Shown here one piece after another: positions 2,215 through 9,486 of a stretch of 9,486 nucleotides of DNA. The notes below the pieces were generated by a model. It was not told the origin of the DNA and did no database searches. It saw nothing but the letters and a program-made list of their open reading frames with translations. How positions within the stretch are numbered: position 1 is the stretch's first letter; the number at the start of each line of letters is the position of its first letter. Both the position numbers and the translations under genes were made by a program. The stretch covers positions 1 to 9,486 of the forward strand of contig JACQQW010000001.1 of assembly GCA_016206745.1 (NCBI GenBank), given 5' to 3'. This DNA comes from Candidatus Omnitrophota bacterium (GTDB taxonomy: Bacteria > Omnitrophota > Gorgyraeia > Zapsychrales > Fredricksoniimonadaceae).

Positions 2215-2301
2215 ATGAAATTCTTCAACCGTCTGCTTGCTCCGTGGATTGTTTTGAGTCTTATCGCAACTTTTGTCTTACCACCCACCGGAGCTTACGC
2301 A
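2215..2301 (+). other. Signal peptide region of the giant protein
   Basis: Residues 1-29: positive start (MKFFNR), hydrophobic core (APWIVLSLIATFVL), then PPTGAYA before A30, a good signal peptidase I site. No lipobox Cys is present, so a soluble or surface-released protein is predicted rather than a lipoprotein. Confidence 0.85.
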
Positions 2302-5300
2302 GCCGGCGCAACGGTGCTCAATTTGCCTGCGCCGGGCAAAATGGTCCCGTTGAGCGATAAATTTGTTCCCGCCATGGTCAAAGGCCTTACGCTTTATCCG
2401 CATAATCCTCTTAAATTTGATTTCATCATTGATACCGGTGACGCGCGCGTGCAGGGTGACGCATTAAGGGCAGAGTCTGCCAAAATGATCAAATATTTCC
2501 TGGCCGCTTTGACTGTCCCTGAAAAAGATGTGTGGGTCAATCTTTCTCCCTATGAAAAAGACCGCATCATTGCCAATGGTCTGGGCCAAACCGAAATGGG
2601 CCGCGACATGTTGGCCCAGGACTATGTCCTTAAACAATTGACCGCTTCCCTAATATATCCCGAAAACCAGTTGGGCAAGGCATTTTGGAACAAGGTCTAC
2701 CAAAGGGCCCAGAAGAAATATGGCACCACCCAGATCCCGGTCAATACCTTCAATAAAGTCTGGATCCTGCCGGACCATGCCACTATTTATGAACATAATG
2801 GCACGGCTTTTATAACGGAAAATAAGTTGAAGGTCATGCTGGAGCAGGATTATTTGGCGCTGCAAAAAAATACGGTCAACCGGAAAAATGACGTGAATGC
2901 ATTAGGCTCTCAAATCATCCGCGAAACGGTCTTGCCTGAATTGGAAAAAGAAGTCAATACCGGTAAAAACTTCGCCCAATTGCGTCAAATCGCCAATGCC
3001 GTGGTTTTGGCCACCTGGTATAAGATGAATTTGAAGCAGTCTTTATTGGGTCAATTGTACGCCAACCAGAACAAGGTGGCGGGTGTGGATGTGCAGGATA
3101 AAAACGTGAAGATGAAGATTTATGACCAATATTTGCAGGCTTTCAAAAAAGGCGTTTACAACTATATTAAGGAAGACATCGATCCGGTGACAAATCAAAC
3201 TGTGCCCAGAAAATATTTTTCCGGCGGGGAACATCTTATATACACACCAGGTGTTAATTTGGCCATGACCAGCACTATCGATTCGGCGCAGGTAAGCGGT
3301 ATCGATGCTGCTGTAGTAAGTTGGGATGCGGCAGAAATTGTACCTGGTGCGAATACCACCCCATCCCCTTCAAAGGTCACTGACGCCGCGATGGTGGCCA
3401 AAGATGTGAGTGTGTTGGGTCAGCTTGGCTATTTCGTGACAGGTCAGCAAGGAAGACAGTCAGGGAAGACTTCCATTCCAAGTTTAATAGGAGAGGGAAT
3501 GAGGGGAGTTATCATTTCACACTCTGAGGTCATCGAAGCTGCAGAAACAGAAGGTATCTCTCGTGAGACCGCGAATCAGAATTTTGCACGTCAAGTCGAA
3601 ATAGCCTTTGAAAATGACTTACTACAGGATATTATTGTTGCGGTTGGTGAAAATAAACCCGAAAGAGACGCCGGCATTGATAGTGTCAAAGCAATTATTA
3701 AGAGAGACGTCATGGCCCGTATCAGTCTGGTTAAAACTATTTTAAAACAAGGGAATAATGCAAAGCGTTTGCTTATTGCTTACGAGCCGGTTTGGGCCAT
3801 TGGTTCAGGCCAAACACCTGCGACGCCGGAGCAAGCCCAAGAAATTGCCAGCTATATCCGTACAATTATTGAAGAAGATGAAGATTTAGGTGTAGAAGTT
3901 GCGAGGGAAGTACGAATTCTTTATGGCGGCGCCGCAAGTGGAAGCAATGCTGCTAATTTTATGGCTCAAAAAGACATTGATGGTCTGCTCGTTGGTAGTC
4001 AGAGTTTAACTGTTGAAAGAGCAAAACCGATTTTGGATGCCCTGCAAAAAGCCGAGGTCAAGGATGGGCGTATTCCATATTTTGGCGCGAATTGGAAAAC
4101 AGATGAGGTCAATAAGAGTTTTTTCCTTGCATTTGGCAAGTTGTTCAAGGAATATGACCCTACGCGTATCAATATTGGAGTTGCTCCATCGGAGGATCAA
4201 ATTGGAAGTTTAGTAGATAAGCTTAAAGTCATGGGCGCGACCCGGGAGCAGCAATTAAATTACAATCAAGCTGCCATGAAGCAATTTGCTCAGCGTTTTA
4301 AAGCTACGGCCGTCAAACAGGAAGATGCGATCCTTACAGCCATTGGCCGTTTGGCAGGCGTGGACAGAGAAGCAATGACGGTGCGCCGCACGCTGACGAC
4401 CAGCTCTCAGCCAGCCCCGCCAACAACAGTGATCGATCCTGACGGGACAGTGAAGCTGTGGGACAAAGATGATACTATTCATGTATCCGAAGGCTTCTCC
4501 CCTGAGGACCGGACGTCCCTCATTCTTGTTCCGACGGAACGTGGCAGGGTGGCCCATCAAATGACCGTTATTTTTCCGGGAGAAGCGGATTTAGATGCCA
4601 GGGCTTTAGGCCGGCAGTTAAACAGCAGTGGGGTTAGTGTGCGGGACATGGAAGTTTCGCAAGCCCTTCAACCAGGGGACAAAATTGTCATTGATGCACG
4701 ATCCGCTTCTTTCAAAAAAAATGACGGTATCACTCAAGTTGATTTAACTTTTTGGTATGATCTTGGTACGGAGGTTGATGGAGACTTAAAAGAGGATAAT
4801 AAATTGATTATTCATGGATTGAAGGCTTTAAGAGGGTCTCAGCAAGAACCCAGCCGTGCCTTTCAACCCACCCCCAAAGGGTTAAGCAAAAACCTTTTTA
4901 TTAATGGCGCCCGCGGCCGGGTTGGCTCGCTCCTCGTCCGCCAATGGCTACTGGCAGGGCCGGACAGCGGCATCAACCTGGTGCTTGGCAATGGTGTCAG
5001 AAGCGCTGATGCCATGATACAGATTTTGCAGCAAGACTCTGTCCATGGCGCGATTGTAGTCCGGGGAAGAGTGGTCAATGGTTTGAAGGATAAGTATAAA
5101 CAAGGAAAAGAGAAGGGGATCGACTATTTAGAGATCACCTTCAATGGCCATACTTATAATAGAATCTATTTCCTCAATGACCGCCGTGATTATTCAAAGC
5201 TGCCCTTGGCTGATTTTGATGTTGACATTGCCGTTGATGCCATTGTCAATGGAGAAACATGGGACAATCTAGATAAATATATACAAGCAGGAGCCATAAG

Positions 5301-8300
5301 AGTTGTCCATACATCTCCAGCAAAAGTCGATCCTAAAAAAAGTGGTAAAAAGGCATTTGCTTTACAGCTTGGCGTGAGCGAGCACGAGTTCAATGGTCAA
5401 ACGATCTGTCATACGGGGTCTTGTACCACCTATAGTGCGACCGAGCCAGAGAACGCATTAATGCAAGAAGGCGGAATGGAGGCCAAAGAACAAAGAGATC
5501 TTTATGAGAAATACGCGCAAGCTTTGAATGAAACCCCGGAACTAACTAGTGATTTAGAAACAGTGACCATGAAAGCTGTCACCAATCATGCCGCCACAGG
5601 TTCTGATAATACCGTGGATACCTCCAAGCGGCCTTCCGCCATGAAAGGCATAAGACGGGAAACTTCAGGTGCATCAGTGGCCTTGTTGGAATTGCTGCCT
5701 GAACTCAAGGGAAAGCCTGTGCACGTCCATGCTTTGCGCGTCCCTGTAGCCAATATGTCCATCACCGATGTGACCAAAACCGTGAACGTTAATGAAGGCC
5801 AGACCTTGACAGTGGAGGACGTTAAGCAGAGGTTTATTGAGGCTTCTAAGATGCCACTTTTTCAAGGCAAGCTGAGGGTCATTGAAGGCGGATTTAACTC
5901 CAGGCAATTATTAGGCAGTTCTGCCGCTGCAGTTGTTCTATTAGATAGTATAGAAGTAGTCAAAGTCAATGGGACCCGGAATAAATATATGATCCACTAT
6001 AAAAGTTGGTATGACAATGAATGGGGATTTACCGCCCGGGTGTGGGACACCATTTTGGCTGTGGCCGACGACATGGTCCTTAATCCTCCACAAGCGGATA
6101 CGGTCGCTGAATTGCTCGCTGAAATTGACCATATCAACGGCAAATATCCAGACGGTGTCATTTCCGTCAGCGCGCCAAAGGGTATTATGCAAGTGGAAGT
6201 CAATGACCGTCACGCATTTACTGCTGAGTATGGTCTTTTGGATTATTTGGTAAAAGAAGCCCAGTTTAATCCTAATGAGGAAGTCAAGCGGGTGGCCCAA
6301 CAGATCATACGCCAGGCCGCCAATAGTCTAAACATCCATTCCGCTTCACGGCACAATGTGCAGAACGGACTTGTTGTTTTCAATCCCGGCACGGGTTCTG
6401 GTTCTAATTATATGGCCATGCAGCAAATATTCGCCGAGGCGCGCGATATGAATACGGTCCCGGTCATTAATATGAACCCGGCAGACCGGCGCGTGGAAAG
6501 AGGGCAGGACACTTTGACACCGGAGTTAGACGGTGTTCCTCAAGAAGCTGAAAAACCTGGTTTAGAGGACTATGAACCTGGTTATGTTCCCGCCACCATG
6601 GCTGCTGCATATGCCGCGGCCATAAAGGAAAGTTATACCGGCCTGGTGTTTTTTAACCTGGATAAGCTGGATGTTAATCCGGACAATTTTACTCCCGCTA
6701 AGAAGTACGAGGGCGCAAGCGGGTATGAGAAATTGAGAAAGGAATCTTTACAAAACGCGCTGGAAGATGCCCAGGACCGCATCCTCAAAGCGGCTAAAGC
6801 GGGAGTGTATAATTATCAAGTGGACCTGACCCCGGTGCTTACATATGGTCAGGAGTATGCCGATATTACCCGGACTCGATTGAGTTTTGTCATCGAGGCA
6901 GGGGTCGCATTGACGAAATTTGTCCGTGACCTGGAAGACCAAATCGGGTTTCTTTCCCAGCCTTTGTCTATTAGCTTTACCTTTGCGGAAGGGAAGGTGG
7001 CCGATGCTGAGATAGATGGCGTAAAGGGAGCGATTGAAAAGGAACTGAATCGTCAAGAGCTGGAACCACCCACCTCTTTCGGCGAGCATACCCCGCAATC
7101 GGATCCCAAAGCCGTGCAGTATGCGGTATTGCAAGGGGTGGTTGCCCAGCAGCAGGACATACGCATCGGCCGTTTACGCCATGACATGATCAATTTTATC
7201 TATGGATTGATCTATAAAACTGAGTTGGCAACGCAGAGGACCAAAGACCGCATTAAGGCAAATGGTCTCAGTGCCGCCGGCCAGCGCTATAGCCGTAATA
7301 AAGCTGCTTGGCTCAAGGCCTTGGCATTAGGGCGTAAGCAAGGAAAGTCTTTGGACGAGATTTTTGACTTGATCTTTACCGGTTCCATCCTCACTGGTTC
7401 CGATATCCAAGGCTTGAATAGCGAGGAAAAAGGACACCTGGATAAATTGATGGAATTTGTGTTCAGGGCTTTTCGCGCCGATATTTTTAATTTCCGTGAT
7501 GAAACAACGGCATTGAGTGTTTCTACCAATGCTAAAAATCAGATTATTGCAACTGCTAACGGACAGGGGAATGCGAATAAAGTCAATAAGGTTCTCAATG
7601 CCGGCTTTAGACACGATCCCAAAAAACCCGTACAACCCAAACCAGGCCGTACCACGCATGATAAGTATCAGAAATATTACCAAGAAGTTGCTGGTAAAGT
7701 GAAGGAATATCAAGAACCGGCGGTTGAATTCCATCTTGGAACGTATGGCGTTGGGCCGGAGCAATTGGACGCGCGCCTTCGTGAATTGGCAGATAGACAC
7801 ATCGCCAATCTGGCCACCAGAATGGGAGAAATTGGGATATTAGCCGCGGACGAAAGTGACGGCACACTTAAAAGACGGTTTGATGCTAATAGAATCCCGT
7901 GGACAACTGAAAATGTTCATGCTTATCGTGAGATGTTATTCACTACTCCGGGATTGGAAAAGTTTGTGAGCGGGGTGATCATTTATGAAAAGACCTTAAC
8001 TGAACAAACAGATTTGGTCCAGAAATCTCTTATAAATAGGGGGATAGCAGTTATTCTAAAAACGGATAATGGTCTTCAGCCTTTGTATAAAGATTCTAAA
8101 GAGCAAATTTCCAGCTGGGATCTTTCAAAAAAGGAGGACCAGGAAGCGCTGAGGGCTAGATTACGGCTGGGGAAGTCATTAGGTGTGACTGGTTCTAAAT
8201 ACCGTACGGTTATTGAGCTCACAGACAACGACGGAAAATTCAGACCCCCCTCACCGGAGGTCATTAGGAACAGCGCTTTTACCCAAGCCACCCAGGCAAG

Positions 8301-9165
8301 GATTGCCTTGGAAGAGGGAATCATCCCGATGGTTGAACCGGAGGTCCTGTTTGATGGAGATGTAAGCATCGAACAAGTTTATGCCATCACGGATGAGGTG
8401 TTGAGGACCACCTTTGAAGAACTTGAGAGACAAGGTGTCGACCCGCGTCATATCATTCTTAAGCCCAATATGACGGCTAGCGGTTATAAGCAAGCTAAGG
8501 ACAAACGTGCTGATAGTAAGAAGGTGGCTGAAATGACCACCAGGGTATTGATTAAACATGTGCCGGCGGCATTAGCTAATATTAACTTTTTATCTGGAGG
8601 GCAGCCGGGCAGCGAGGCAACTGAAAACTTGCATGAGATTAATCTGCTTCTCCAGGATCCTGAGAGGTTGGAAAAAGTTGTACGTCAAGCCCATGATGAA
8701 TTAATTGCAGAAGCTAACAGAAAAAGAGCTAATGAAGTGGCTTTATTAAATGCGGCACCTTGGAATGTCGGGTATTCGTATGGGCGTGAATTTCAAGGTG
8801 AACCGCAAAGGATATGGAACGGTAATCATGCAAATGTTGCACCAGCTCAAAAGGAATTCGCTAGAAGAGGAGACTCTATACTGGCTGCTCGAGTGGCGCA
8901 ATTAGAAGCCGTTGGAGCTGATAGGGCGGCGGTGTCGGTGGCAGAGAGAAGAGAAAGAGAAGGTGGTATCAACTTCGATCCGGCGATGTACAGCATTAAG
9001 ATCAAGCGCGATCGTAATGGCGTTCCGCTTACTGTGGACCAGCAGCCCATCGGCAGGATCAATGTCCTGGGGTTTAGGGGTATCATTAGGGCGATAGCGC
9101 CTGCGAATCTGCCATTGATACTGGGTATGACTCAACCATTGCAGAAGATAGCGATGAATCGTTAA
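2215..9165 (+). CDS. Giant exported multi-enzyme fusion: permuted triosephosphate isomerase, GAPDH-like domain, class I fructose-bisphosphate aldolase
   Basis: A 2316-residue protein in one uninterrupted frame. A Sec signal peptide (1-29: short K/R n-region, hydrophobic core, AYA-A cleavage site) predicts export. Domains in order: lineage-type N-terminal module (30-342), linker, circularly permuted triosephosphate isomerase (396-674), helix, Pro/Thr linker and beta-rich segment (675-889), GAPDH-like domain (890-1288), unassigned region (1289-1848), class I aldolase (1849-2225) and C-terminal module (2250-2316). Together these would convert fructose-1,6-bisphosphate to trioses and on to 1,3-bisphosphoglycerate. 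Isomerase and aldolase catalytic residues are intact; the GAPDH cofactor site is altered. It has its own promoter and terminator, so it is probably a single-gene transcript, and a paralogue starts just downstream. Domain identities are secure; export, activity and physiological role are inference. An alternative is a surface or adhesive protein built from enzyme folds. Confidence 0.92.
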   Translation: MKFFNRLLAPWIVLSLIATFVLPPTGAYAAGATVLNLPAPGKMVPLSDKFVPAMVKGLTLYPHNPLKFDFIIDTGDARVQGDALRAESAKMIKYFLAALTVPEKDVWVNLSPYEKDRIIANGLGQTEMGRDMLAQDYVLKQLTASLIYPENQLGKAFWNKVYQRAQKKYGTTQIPVNTFNKVWILPDHATIYEHNGTAFITENKLKVMLEQDYLALQKNTVNRKNDVNALGSQIIRETVLPELEKEVNTGKNFAQLRQIANAVVLATWYKMNLKQSLLGQLYANQNKVAGVDVQDKNVKMKIYDQYLQAFKKGVYNYIKEDIDPVTNQTVPRKYFSGGEHLIYTPGVNLAMTSTIDSAQVSGIDAAVVSWDAAEIVPGANTTPSPSKVTDAAMVAKDVSVLGQLGYFVTGQQGRQSGKTSIPSLIGEGMRGVIISHSEVIEAAETEGISRETANQNFARQVEIAFENDLLQDIIVAVGENKPERDAGIDSVKAIIKRDVMARISLVKTILKQGNNAKRLLIAYEPVWAIGSGQTPATPEQAQEIASYIRTIIEEDEDLGVEVAREVRILYGGAASGSNAANFMAQKDIDGLLVGSQSLTVERAKPILDALQKAEVKDGRIPYFGANWKTDEVNKSFFLAFGKLFKEYDPTRINIGVAPSEDQIGSLVDKLKVMGATREQQLNYNQAAMKQFAQRFKATAVKQEDAILTAIGRLAGVDREAMTVRRTLTTSSQPAPPTTVIDPDGTVKLWDKDDTIHVSEGFSPEDRTSLILVPTERGRVAHQMTVIFPGEADLDARALGRQLNSSGVSVRDMEVSQALQPGDKIVIDARSASFKKNDGITQVDLTFWYDLGTEVDGDLKEDNKLIIHGLKALRGSQQEPSRAFQPTPKGLSKNLFINGARGRVGSLLVRQWLLAGPDSGINLVLGNGVRSADAMIQILQQDSVHGAIVVRGRVVNGLKDKYKQGKEKGIDYLEITFNGHTYNRIYFLNDRRDYSKLPLADFDVDIAVDAIVNGETWDNLDKYIQAGAIRVVHTSPAKVDPKKSGKKAFALQLGVSEHEFNGQTICHTGSCTTYSATEPENALMQEGGMEAKEQRDLYEKYAQALNETPELTSDLETVTMKAVTNHAATGSDNTVDTSKRPSAMKGIRRETSGASVALLELLPELKGKPVHVHALRVPVANMSITDVTKTVNVNEGQTLTVEDVKQRFIEASKMPLFQGKLRVIEGGFNSRQLLGSSAAAVVLLDSIEVVKVNGTRNKYMIHYKSWYDNEWGFTARVWDTILAVADDMVLNPPQADTVAELLAEIDHINGKYPDGVISVSAPKGIMQVEVNDRHAFTAEYGLLDYLVKEAQFNPNEEVKRVAQQIIRQAANSLNIHSASRHNVQNGLVVFNPGTGSGSNYMAMQQIFAEARDMNTVPVINMNPADRRVERGQDTLTPELDGVPQEAEKPGLEDYEPGYVPATMAAAYAAAIKESYTGLVFFNLDKLDVNPDNFTPAKKYEGASGYEKLRKESLQNALEDAQDRILKAAKAGVYNYQVDLTPVLTYGQEYADITRTRLSFVIEAGVALTKFVRDLEDQIGFLSQPLSISFTFAEGKVADAEIDGVKGAIEKELNRQELEPPTSFGEHTPQSDPKAVQYAVLQGVVAQQQDIRIGRLRHDMINFIYGLIYKTELATQRTKDRIKANGLSAAGQRYSRNKAAWLKALALGRKQGKSLDEIFDLIFTGSILTGSDIQGLNSEEKGHLDKLMEFVFRAFRADIFNFRDETTALSVSTNAKNQIIATANGQGNANKVNKVLNAGFRHDPKKPVQPKPGRTTHDKYQKYYQEVAGKVKEYQEPAVEFHLGTYGVGPEQLDARLRELADRHIANLATRMGEIGILAADESDGTLKRRFDANRIPWTTENVHAYREMLFTTPGLEKFVSGVIIYEKTLTEQTDLVQKSLINRGIAVILKTDNGLQPLYKDSKEQISSWDLSKKEDQEALRARLRLGKSLGVTGSKYRTVIELTDNDGKFRPPSPEVIRNSAFTQATQARIALEEGIIPMVEPEVLFDGDVSIEQVYAITDEVLRTTFEELERQGVDPRHIILKPNMTASGYKQAKDKRADSKKVAEMTTRVLIKHVPAALANINFLSGGQPGSEATENLHEINLLLQDPERLEKVVRQAHDELIAEANRKRANEVALLNAAPWNVGYSYGREFQGEPQRIWNGNHANVAPAQKEFARRGDSILAARVAQLEAVGADRAAVSVAERREREGGINFDPAMYSIKIKRDRNGVPLTVDQQPIGRINVLGFRGIIRAIAPANLPLILGMTQPLQKIAMNR
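2302..3240 (+). other. N-terminal module shared with the downstream paralogue (residues 30-342)
   Basis: An uncharacterised, mostly helical module starting VLNLPAPGKMVPLSDKF and ending near PRKYFSGGEHL. Its first 36 residues (from V34) match the start of the next gene at 27 of 36 positions, counted by eye. From memory, similar modules head many large exported proteins in Omnitrophota assemblies, but this could not be searched. No catalytic motif is recognisable. It may serve export, surface anchoring or assembly; that is inference. Confidence 0.6.
3400..4236 (+). other. Circularly permuted triosephosphate isomerase domain (residues 396-674)
   Basis: Interconverts dihydroxyacetone phosphate and glyceraldehyde-3-phosphate. 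Motifs occur in the order beta3, beta4 (ISHSE, H436 and E438 matching H95 and E97), beta6 (AYEPVWAIGSG, E524 matching catalytic E165), beta7 (YGGAASGSN, 570-578), beta8 (DGLLVGSQSL, 589-598), and only then beta1 (GANWKTDE, N626 and K628 matching N11 and K13) and beta2 (INIGVAPSEDQ). Canonical enzymes begin with the NWK strand. The old C-terminal helix is joined to the old N-terminus by about ten residues, and the new ends fall between helix 2 and beta3. All catalytic residues are present. Differences are GHSERR changed to SHSEVI and a rewritten loop 3, the usual dimer-interface loop. Length is about 279 residues against about 250 normally. Confidence 0.9.
4237..4881 (+). other. Inter-domain helix, Pro/Thr linker and beta-rich segment (residues 675-889)
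   Basis: A helical stretch (about 676-725) is followed by a short Ser/Thr/Pro linker (TTSSQPAPPTT, about 728-738), then about 130 residues with alternating hydrophobic patterns suggesting beta strands (TSLILVPTERGR, HQMTVIFPG, DKIVIDARS, VDLTFWYDLG). No family is recognised. It may be a spacer or small beta domain between the isomerase and the dehydrogenase. Confidence 0.45.
4882..6078 (+). other. Glyceraldehyde-3-phosphate dehydrogenase-like domain (residues 890-1288)
   Basis: Canonical order is kept: nucleotide-binding start (LFINGARGRVGS), QQDSVHG, catalytic Cys1070 in TGSCTTYS, catalytic His1125 in TNHAATG, ETSGAS, RVPVANMSITDVT with the phosphate-contact Arg1175, and the near-C-terminal WYDNEWGF (1265-1272) including the nicotinamide-contact Asn1268. 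It should oxidise glyceraldehyde-3-phosphate with phosphate if a cofactor binds. Odd points: the usual NGFGRIGR reads NGARGRVGS, with an extra residue; the Asp that binds the adenosine ribose (INDP) is replaced by GNG; the Asn after CTT is Tyr; and Cys-His spacing is 55 rather than about 27 residues. The fold is secure; activity is uncertain. Confidence 0.88.
6079..7758 (+). other. Unassigned 560-residue region between GAPDH and aldolase domains
   Basis: No family is recognised with confidence. It contains a Gly-rich segment (VVFNPGTGSGSNYMAMQQ), an acidic linker (about 1445-1460), long amphipathic helices, and a KAGVYNY motif at 1528-1534 that echoes KKGVYNY at 311-317 of the N-terminal module. 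The last part (about 1785-1848) is Lys/Pro-rich and looks like a linker into the aldolase. The alternation of predicted strands and helices would allow another barrel or Rossmann-like enzyme, but no catalytic motif was found. Confidence 0.4.
7759..8889 (+). other. Class I fructose-1,6-bisphosphate aldolase domain (residues 1849-2225)
   Basis: Cleaves fructose-1,6-bisphosphate into dihydroxyacetone phosphate and glyceraldehyde-3-phosphate through a lysine Schiff base. Order and length (about 375 residues) match the animal/plant-type class I family. By comparison with rabbit muscle aldolase: D1879 in ILAADES (D33), K1949 (K107), K1995 and R1997 in SKYR (K146, R148), E2041 and E2043 in VEPE (E187, E189), Schiff-base K2083 in ILKPNM (K229), S2127 in FLSGGQ (S271), and R2191 in SYGRE (R303). 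All active-site positions checked are kept, so activity is likely if it folds outside the cytoplasm. The long C-terminal region with the terminal Tyr of muscle aldolase is missing. Confidence 0.95.
8962..9162 (+). other. C-terminal module of the giant protein (residues 2250-2316)
   Basis: After a charged helical spacer, the chain ends with about 67 residues starting GGINFDPAMYSIKIKRD, then GVPL, QQPIGRIN, GFRGII and LPLILGM. From memory, similar tails (GGI-D/N-x-NP, KRDGNGVPL, VTNLPLLLG) close many large exported Omnitrophota proteins; this was not verified. A constant tail on otherwise different exported proteins would fit a sorting or anchoring signal, but that is inference. Confidence 0.45.
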
Positions 9166-9279: not shown

Positions 9280-9486
9280 ATGGTTTGTTTAAAACGTCTC
9301 CTGTCCCCCGTCATTGTTTTTTGTTTTACCGCCATTTTCATCGCCCAATCCTTCCCCCTATACGCAGCCCAAGGCAGCCTCCTGGACCTGCCTGAACCGG
9401 GAAAGATGATTGCCTTAAGCCCTAAATTTGTGCCGGCCATGGTTAAAGGCATCACCCTTTATCCGAATGATCCCCTTAAATTTGAT
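9280..9486 (+). CDS. Exported paralogue with the same N-terminal module (3' end outside window)
   Basis: The first 69 codons of a gene continuing past the window. It starts with a signal peptide (MVCLKRLL, hydrophobic core VIVFCFTAIFIAQ, then LYAA as the likely cleavage region) and continues LLDLPEPGKMIALSPKFVPAMVKG, then ITLYPNDPLKFD. This mature start aligns without gaps to the giant protein upstream (27 of 36 positions). The two genes are tandem, same strand, separated by 114 bases holding a terminator, so they arose by duplication of at least the N-terminal module. Total length and cargo domains cannot be seen; another large modular protein is the natural guess. Confidence 0.85.
   Translation, partial: MVCLKRLLSPVIVFCFTAIFIAQSFPLYAAQGSLLDLPEPGKMIALSPKFVPAMVKGITLYPNDPLKFD

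Follow-up and report, generated by a model that had tools for sequence, protein, structure and literature searches.

A predicted-exported chain of glycolytic enzymes in Omnitrophota and the leader-and-tail protein family to which it belongs

Why would a bacterium place glycolytic enzymes behind a predicted signal peptide, when central carbon metabolism is assigned to the cell interior on the grounds that its substrates and cofactors are found there? The question is raised by a 9,486-nucleotide stretch of DNA from a Candidatus Omnitrophota bacterium (hereafter the window: positions 1-9486 of contig C8, in an assembly of 1.36 Mb that is 69% complete), in which one forward-strand frame of 6951 bases, opening with ATG and free of internal stops, encodes a protein of 2316 amino acids (aa). 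A sequence-only reading had described this frame as three neighbouring glycolytic enzymes on a single signal-bearing chain of more than 2300 residues, and Pfam matches to triosephosphate isomerase (TIM), glyceraldehyde-3-phosphate dehydrogenase (GAPDH) and class I fructose-bisphosphate aldolase (FBA) bear this out. The three-enzyme description lacked a shared leader and tail, a permutation of TIM and a fourth, class II aldolase-like domain, all of which are included below. As judged from sequence, the chances are about even that the chain is exported, as predicted, and forms a catalytically active triose-phosphate unit that likely works outside the cytoplasm. Its parts, and the gene that follows it, are:

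2215..9165, forward strand: whole giant frame, 2316 aa, with relatives L057, P0002, P0003 and P0004
2215..2301, forward strand: predicted signal peptide, residues 1-29, with AYA at its end (rule-based; putative cleavage site)
2302..3234, forward strand: shared leader domain, residues ~30-340
3385..4242, forward strand: circularly permuted TIM, residues ~391-676 (Pfam, rotated profile)
4312..4866, forward strand: linker, residues ~700-884, with no Pfam match, conserved in P0002, P0003, P0004 and L057
4867..6084, forward strand: GAPDH, residues ~885-1290 (Pfam; active-site Cys and His kept)
6076..7500, forward strand: class II aldolase-like domain, residues 1288-1762, probably lacking metal-aldolase activity
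7750..8949, forward strand: class I FBA (PF00274), residues ~1846-2245 (Pfam, PDB sequence search, catalytic sites)
8962..9162, forward strand: shared C-terminal tail, residues 2250-2316 (GGINFDPA...NLPLILG..., a GGI[ND]-type motif)
9367..9486, forward strand: second leader gene in tandem, of which only the start precedes the contig end (70% identity to residues 2-41)

The sequence-only reading had allowed for an assembly chimera, to be recognised by absence of the fusion from relatives. The same chain is present in L057 (contig JABDCU010000010.1), which aligns to it at 75% over residues 3-338 and at 50% over residues 372-1852, and in P0002 (58% over residues 392-1837). Since these relatives carry the chain independently, a chimera is not supported.

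Enzyme domains of the chain

The TIM core matches PF00121 at 112.8 bits (cut-off 20.1) over residues 396-608, equivalent to profile positions 53-243, and the segment that normally comes first, with its GANWK motif, lies at about residues 618-676. This departure from the normal order, with the Lys-bearing first segment placed after the last one, is common to the window chain (P0001), P0002, P0003 and L057. A rotated profile yields one longer match in each of the four, raising the score by 6 to 20 bits (window, 107.8 to 114.2; P0002, 126.7 to 136.8; L057, 98.5 to 114.1; P0003, 91.8 to 112.0); the matches of the normal-order TIMs of P0005 and P0007 are split by it, and P0006 stays at 135. When the first segment was scored alone, shuffled sequences did as well in 9 of 500 cases for the window, 1 for P0002 and none for P0003 or L057; by itself, the window's segment is a weak match. 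In a tree of TIM sequences the four permuted domains group together (100/99), consistent with one permutation event. Ten of the 11 giant rows form one clade (95/99), with L199 outside it on a branch whose length exceeds 7 changes per column; long branches meet in this tree (the window's group with P0006), so its details are unsure.

Seven giant TIM domains show 33-43% identity to the short TIM of the window's own genome. Of 560 cells at positions that are the same in 28 or more of 29 short TIMs they keep 347, and the Asn, Lys, His and Glu that we take to be catalytic are kept in the window and in all seven. Six further giant copies retain Lys, His and Glu in five cases (L175, L176, L194b, L199 and copy 1 of L193, where profile support does not extend to the Lys), bringing the overall count to 12 of 13. 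The GAPDH domain matches Gp_dh_C (PF02800) at 45.3 bits (cut-off 24.4) over residues 1117-1262. Window-type GAPDH domains are 24-27% identical to the short GAPDH of the window's own genome, and the Cys and His that presumably form the active site are present in all five chains; in four other giants both are kept in six of eight GAPDH matches, making 11 of 13 giant GAPDH domains overall.

For the aldolase, PF00274 matches at 204.2 bits (cut-off 22.2) over residues 1873-2145 plus a second stretch, and a sequence search of the PDB placed class I aldolases on top, the best being 3kx6_A at 159.6 bits. All nine sites that we take to be catalytic by rabbit numbering are present in the window, and 14 further copies at 27-50% identity keep 124 of 126 cells (70/72 in eight copies, 54/54 in six more). 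The domain is like other PF00274 aldolases in sequence family, in the nine residues and in its best PDB match, and it differs from the usual ones in being embedded in a giant chain predicted to be exported. Among the 285 phylum genomes used for all phylum-wide counts, PF00274 occurs in six; its main matches are confined to frames between 1180 and 3299 aa long, and the sole piece in a small frame (239 aa) adjoins a giant one. The sequence-only reading had proposed a search for separate copies of the three enzymes. Apart from the giant, its own genome does have short genes for TIM (263 aa) and for GAPDH (364 aa), with a gene for phosphoglycerate kinase (PGK) adjoining the short TIM, but no separate short PF00274 gene was found in the 285 genomes. 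The idea that the chain is the genome's only TIM or GAPDH was accordingly rejected.

Relatives fill the aldolase slot from more than one family: PF00274 occupies it in the window and P0003, and the FbaB/DeoC-type family PF01791 in P0002, P0004 and L057. Although these are separate Pfam families, they may be distant kin, because both are, as we take it, Schiff-base TIM-barrel aldolases. Class I aldolase is also found behind signal-like starts of another type in giant frames of distant families (L190 and L192), the former of which also has a malate synthase barrel.

Between GAPDH and the class I aldolase, residues 1288-1762 gave no match to a family in Pfam or NCBIfam (a single chance row came up when Pfam was taken to E 1), and the P0006 slice of this middle region, searched against the PDB, yielded one chance match (E 0.72). 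We placed the region by way of single-domain relatives and fold comparison. Its profile finds proteins of about 450 aa, with matches in 131 of the 285 genomes, some in giant frames; the relative in the window's own genome, on contig C54, is a 445-aa PF01116 protein (53.2 bits); and in its predicted fold the region is similar to GatZ, UxaE and class II aldolases. Within the GDHCQ motif of the C54 protein, the His, presumably a metal-binding residue, is Lys in the window and not His in any of six giants, and two further C54 His that we also take to bind metal are unmatched in the giants, in an alignment that is gappy here. The region is likely a decayed former class II aldolase whose job has passed to the metal-free class I enzyme, and if the task was so handed on, aldolase activity would matter.

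The leader-and-tail family and its glycolytic cargo

The window chain is a member of a larger family defined by its leader and tail. The leader is present in 90 of the 285 genomes and heads scores of further giant proteins; the chain is not a lone oddity. The leader's nearest relatives in named genomes are, with few exceptions, from Candidatus Omnitrophota or Omnitrophica; one leader gene (L090) lies on a contig titled Phenylobacterium sp., which is likely a mis-binned Omnitrophota contig. Of 120 listed homologues, 116 carry a GGI[ND]-type tail motif in their final 160 aa; among the leader frames at 79 loci, 83 are closed at the 3' end, and 68 of these have the motif in their final 170 aa. Comparison of the leader fold by Foldseek and VIA gave nothing convincing, which is no proof of a new fold. 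A Pfam domain is present in 79 of the 120 homologues and a central-carbon or sugar enzyme in 38, in a list that favours glycolytic-type cargo because it was ranked by likeness to the window.

The N-terminus of the window chain carries Lys/Arg, a hydrophobic core averaging 1.84 on the Kyte-Doolittle scale over 19 residues and an AYA motif, and past residue 40 no 19-residue stretch exceeds 1.51. A basic residue and hydrophobic core are likewise found in 115 of the 120 homologues. The signal peptide of the sequence-only reading has a rule-based match here, and the Sec-type export and cleavage of the chain that it implies are predictions.

Glycolytic enzymes recur in giant frames within the order. 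Across 54 genomes of the order, frames longer than 1000 aa hold TIM in five (all of which also have a short TIM), PGK in nine (eight also with a short PGK) and GAPDH above cut-off in three, together accounting for 13 genomes. L057 also has enolase, at 459 bits against a curated cut-off of 300 bits. Among leader chains, L172 combines GAPDH, PGK (343 bits), enolase and class II aldolase, and L195 combines PGK and enolase. Other combinations are PGK with an HMGL-like domain (L196), GAPDH with acyl-CoA dehydrogenase (L197), PGK with His-phosphatase (L198) and TIM with fructose-bisphosphatase (FBPase; L199). The start of L193 lies beyond its contig; class I aldolase and TIM stretches each occur twice in it, together with isocitrate lyase. 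L175 (2810-13636, reverse strand, 3609 aa), with a divergent leader, carries GAPDH, PGK, TIM, enolase and a GatZ-like domain, and L178 (6634-14142, 2503 aa), with a signal-like start lacking such a leader, carries phosphofructokinase (PFK), a GatZ-like domain, GAPDH and PGK. A PGK domain was also seen in an 8222-aa frame on contig C56 of genome G286 (L202, L203), the start of which is masked.

Eight of 14 enzyme pairs on one chain were pathway neighbours, against 2.1 expected, and 4 of 20,000 shuffles scored as high, in a test that left out P0001-P0010, treated near-related chains that are not independent, admitted the broad family PF00300 and used a pathway graph that we assumed from general knowledge. 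Residue conservation across the wider cargo is mixed. The KKCGH-type motif of isocitrate lyase is present in five of five copies, and a motif that we take as the signature of pyruvate phosphate dikinase (PPDK) in one of three. Our PROSITE-like motif screen was too strict, missing true TIM and GAPDH sites and suggesting lost phosphomutase residues.

Export, activity and alternative readings

If the chain acts as we favour, the Sec machinery would move it across the inner membrane with removal of the predicted signal peptide, and the leader and tail, judging from their conservation, may retain it in the periplasm or at the surface, or direct it there. The aldolase would then split fructose-1,6-bisphosphate, TIM would interconvert the trioses, and GAPDH would oxidise glyceraldehyde-3-phosphate, or the whole sequence would run in reverse; these roles are suggested by the conserved catalytic residues. 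Sibling chains, whose PGK, enolase and FBPase domains are seen directly, could supply the neighbouring steps of a putative pathway. A broader proposal, which we consider less likely than not, is that Omnitrophota possess a second, extracytoplasmic central metabolism, consisting of a family of exported megaenzymes with one leader, one tail and exchangeable cargo, each chain stringing together successive reactions of glycolysis, of the glyoxylate shunt or of sugar-nucleotide synthesis.

Several observations weigh against an active, exported unit. We know of no supply of NAD(P) or sugar phosphates outside the cytoplasm. No conserved secretion partner adjoins the leader genes at the 79 loci; recurrent neighbours belong to general families only, and genes for GspE and GspF, which we take to be pilus or type II secretion-like, occur at four loci each. 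Of the domains put to the search that the sequence-only reading had called for, TIM, Gp_dh_C and PF00274 exceed their Pfam cut-offs, but Gp_dh_N does not (20.2 bits, cut-off 31.7). The more demanding NCBIfam equivalog models are also missed, widely by GAPDH (TIGR01534, 125.5 against 367.2) and narrowly by FBA (NF033379, 247.7 against 250). In all five window-type GAPDH domains an Asp, presumably the cofactor-selecting Asp32, is replaced by Gly, and the nucleotide loop of these same five domains has one extra residue; together the two changes suggest use of NADP or relaxed cofactor use. Both Cys and His are lost in one GAPDH match each of L175 and L178, and the second TIM copy of L193 (residues 1456-1688 of a 3299-aa frame) lacks Lys, His and Glu. 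By signatures that we assumed from general knowledge, the PGK Arg motif is kept in only 2 of 4 and 6 of 9 copies, enolase KxNQ in 2 of 3 and again in 2 of 3 of a further set, and the phosphomutase Ser-His pair in 7 of 8, although no copy has the strict motif. Finally, 41 of the 120 listed homologues have no Pfam domain at all, as is true at 0.01 of 11 of the 13 other leader frames examined on 13 contigs of the window's own genome, several of which are cut by contig ends; the remaining two hold a sub-threshold GlpX fragment and an aldo/keto reductase.

Many of these points would be expected if enzyme folds were reused as binding or adhesive surface modules for which catalysis is irrelevant, much as glycolytic enzymes moonlight at cell surfaces. 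Low scores against curated models, the missing metal-site His of the aldolase-like domain in six of six giants, the copies of TIM and GAPDH that are dead by residue and the many leader proteins without a recognisable enzyme all agree with such a scaffold, and adhesin roles have been proposed for giant Omnitrophota open reading frames (ORFs) in the portion of PMC10066038 considered here. Against it stand the catalytic residues, which the window chain and its relatives keep far above other conserved positions, the filling of the aldolase slot by two families and the pairing of neighbouring steps on chains; we consider a scaffold unlikely. Retention of catalytic residues and an aldolase slot occupied by different families make regeneration of trioses outside the cytoplasm the best fit among the purposes raised in the sequence-only reading, with export a prediction. 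An adhesin role for the enzyme folds is a poorer fit on the same grounds, although some cargo copies elsewhere have lost their catalytic residues.

The cofactor problem would be eased if the chain were an effector, passed into a host or prey cell to tap the metabolism there, since NAD(P) and sugar phosphates are available inside another cell. One leader-type protein, P0094 (4008 aa), is listed with Pfam domains PF04095, PF00857, PF01467, PF02540 and PF17767, several domains that we take to serve NAD salvage. Dependence on a host has also been proposed for Omnitrophota in the part of PMC10066038 considered. However, no conserved injection gene adjoins the leaders, and the ATP/ADP translocase PF03219, found in 40 of the 285 genomes, is in none of the 90 leader genomes (12.6 expected, from a comparison of two genome listings in which related genomes are not independent). 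PF03219 was thereby rejected as a marker of intracellular ATP parasitism for these genomes, and it lends no support to life inside an ATP-rich host; delivery as an effector appears distinctly unlikely. It is improbable, in our judgement, that the chain is a polyprotein that is exported and then cut into separate enzymes, with leader and tail as mere carriers. Such processing would suit the near-completeness of each domain and the common leader and tail whatever cargo lies between, but the altered ends of the permuted TIM sit inside the chain. The least probable of these accounts makes the N-terminal segment an anchor, or unused, and the chain an extra cytosolic or membrane-bound triose unit. 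The cytoplasm is where the substrates and cofactors are located, and a plain AxA follows the core in only 55 of the 115 signal-like N-termini; those N-termini are nonetheless shared by homologues with widely different cargo, and the genome already has its short TIM and GAPDH.

Should the favoured reading of an exported and active chain be correct, its bearers, members of a widespread, mostly uncultured phylum of small bacteria, would have a second set of glycolytic enzymes outside the cytoplasm, fused in pathway order. It would also provide some of the giant Omnitrophota genes, so far unexplained, with a function that can be tested and offer a natural circularly permuted TIM, and the leader-and-tail pair may define an unknown route of export or anchoring.

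Known fusions, giant genes and the surroundings of the locus

Neighbouring glycolytic steps on one chain are also found in the bifunctional PGK-TIM enzyme (NF010569), which the window matches with 105.3 bits, where the cut-off is 883. That enzyme is cytosolic and joins two enzymes without leader or tail. Mitochondrial TPI-GAPDH fusion proteins of stramenopiles, cercozoans and an apusozoan are described in the consulted part of PMC3527533: they too unite TIM and GAPDH on one chain with a targeting signal at the N-terminus, and some glycolytic steps are accordingly predicted to take place in another compartment. Those fusions comprise two enzymes with mitochondrial targeting in eukaryotes, whereas the window chain has a bacterial predicted Sec signal, a permuted TIM, an added aldolase, and a leader and tail common to unrelated cargo.

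Giant Omnitrophota ORFs are presented in PMC10066038, in the portion considered, as poorly understood, with host interaction proposed. The window frame resembles them in phylum and in being a very long single frame. They exceed 20 kb, have few annotated domains and are in some cases adhesin-like, whereas the window frame, at 6.9 kb, falls short of that length, is enzyme-rich and has conserved ends. That portion of the paper makes no mention of a shared leader or of glycolytic cargo, and a literature search covering titles and the beginnings of abstracts, with preprints and most subscription papers outside its scope, found no account of the leader-tail family.

A search for tandem repeats found none. 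Upstream of the giant gene, positions 3-2055 hold genes for a GGDEF protein and a HAMP-HisKA protein, in the latter of which Pfam detected no ATPase domain. The GC content of these upstream genes is 0.51-0.57, as compared with 0.41-0.50 in the giant gene.

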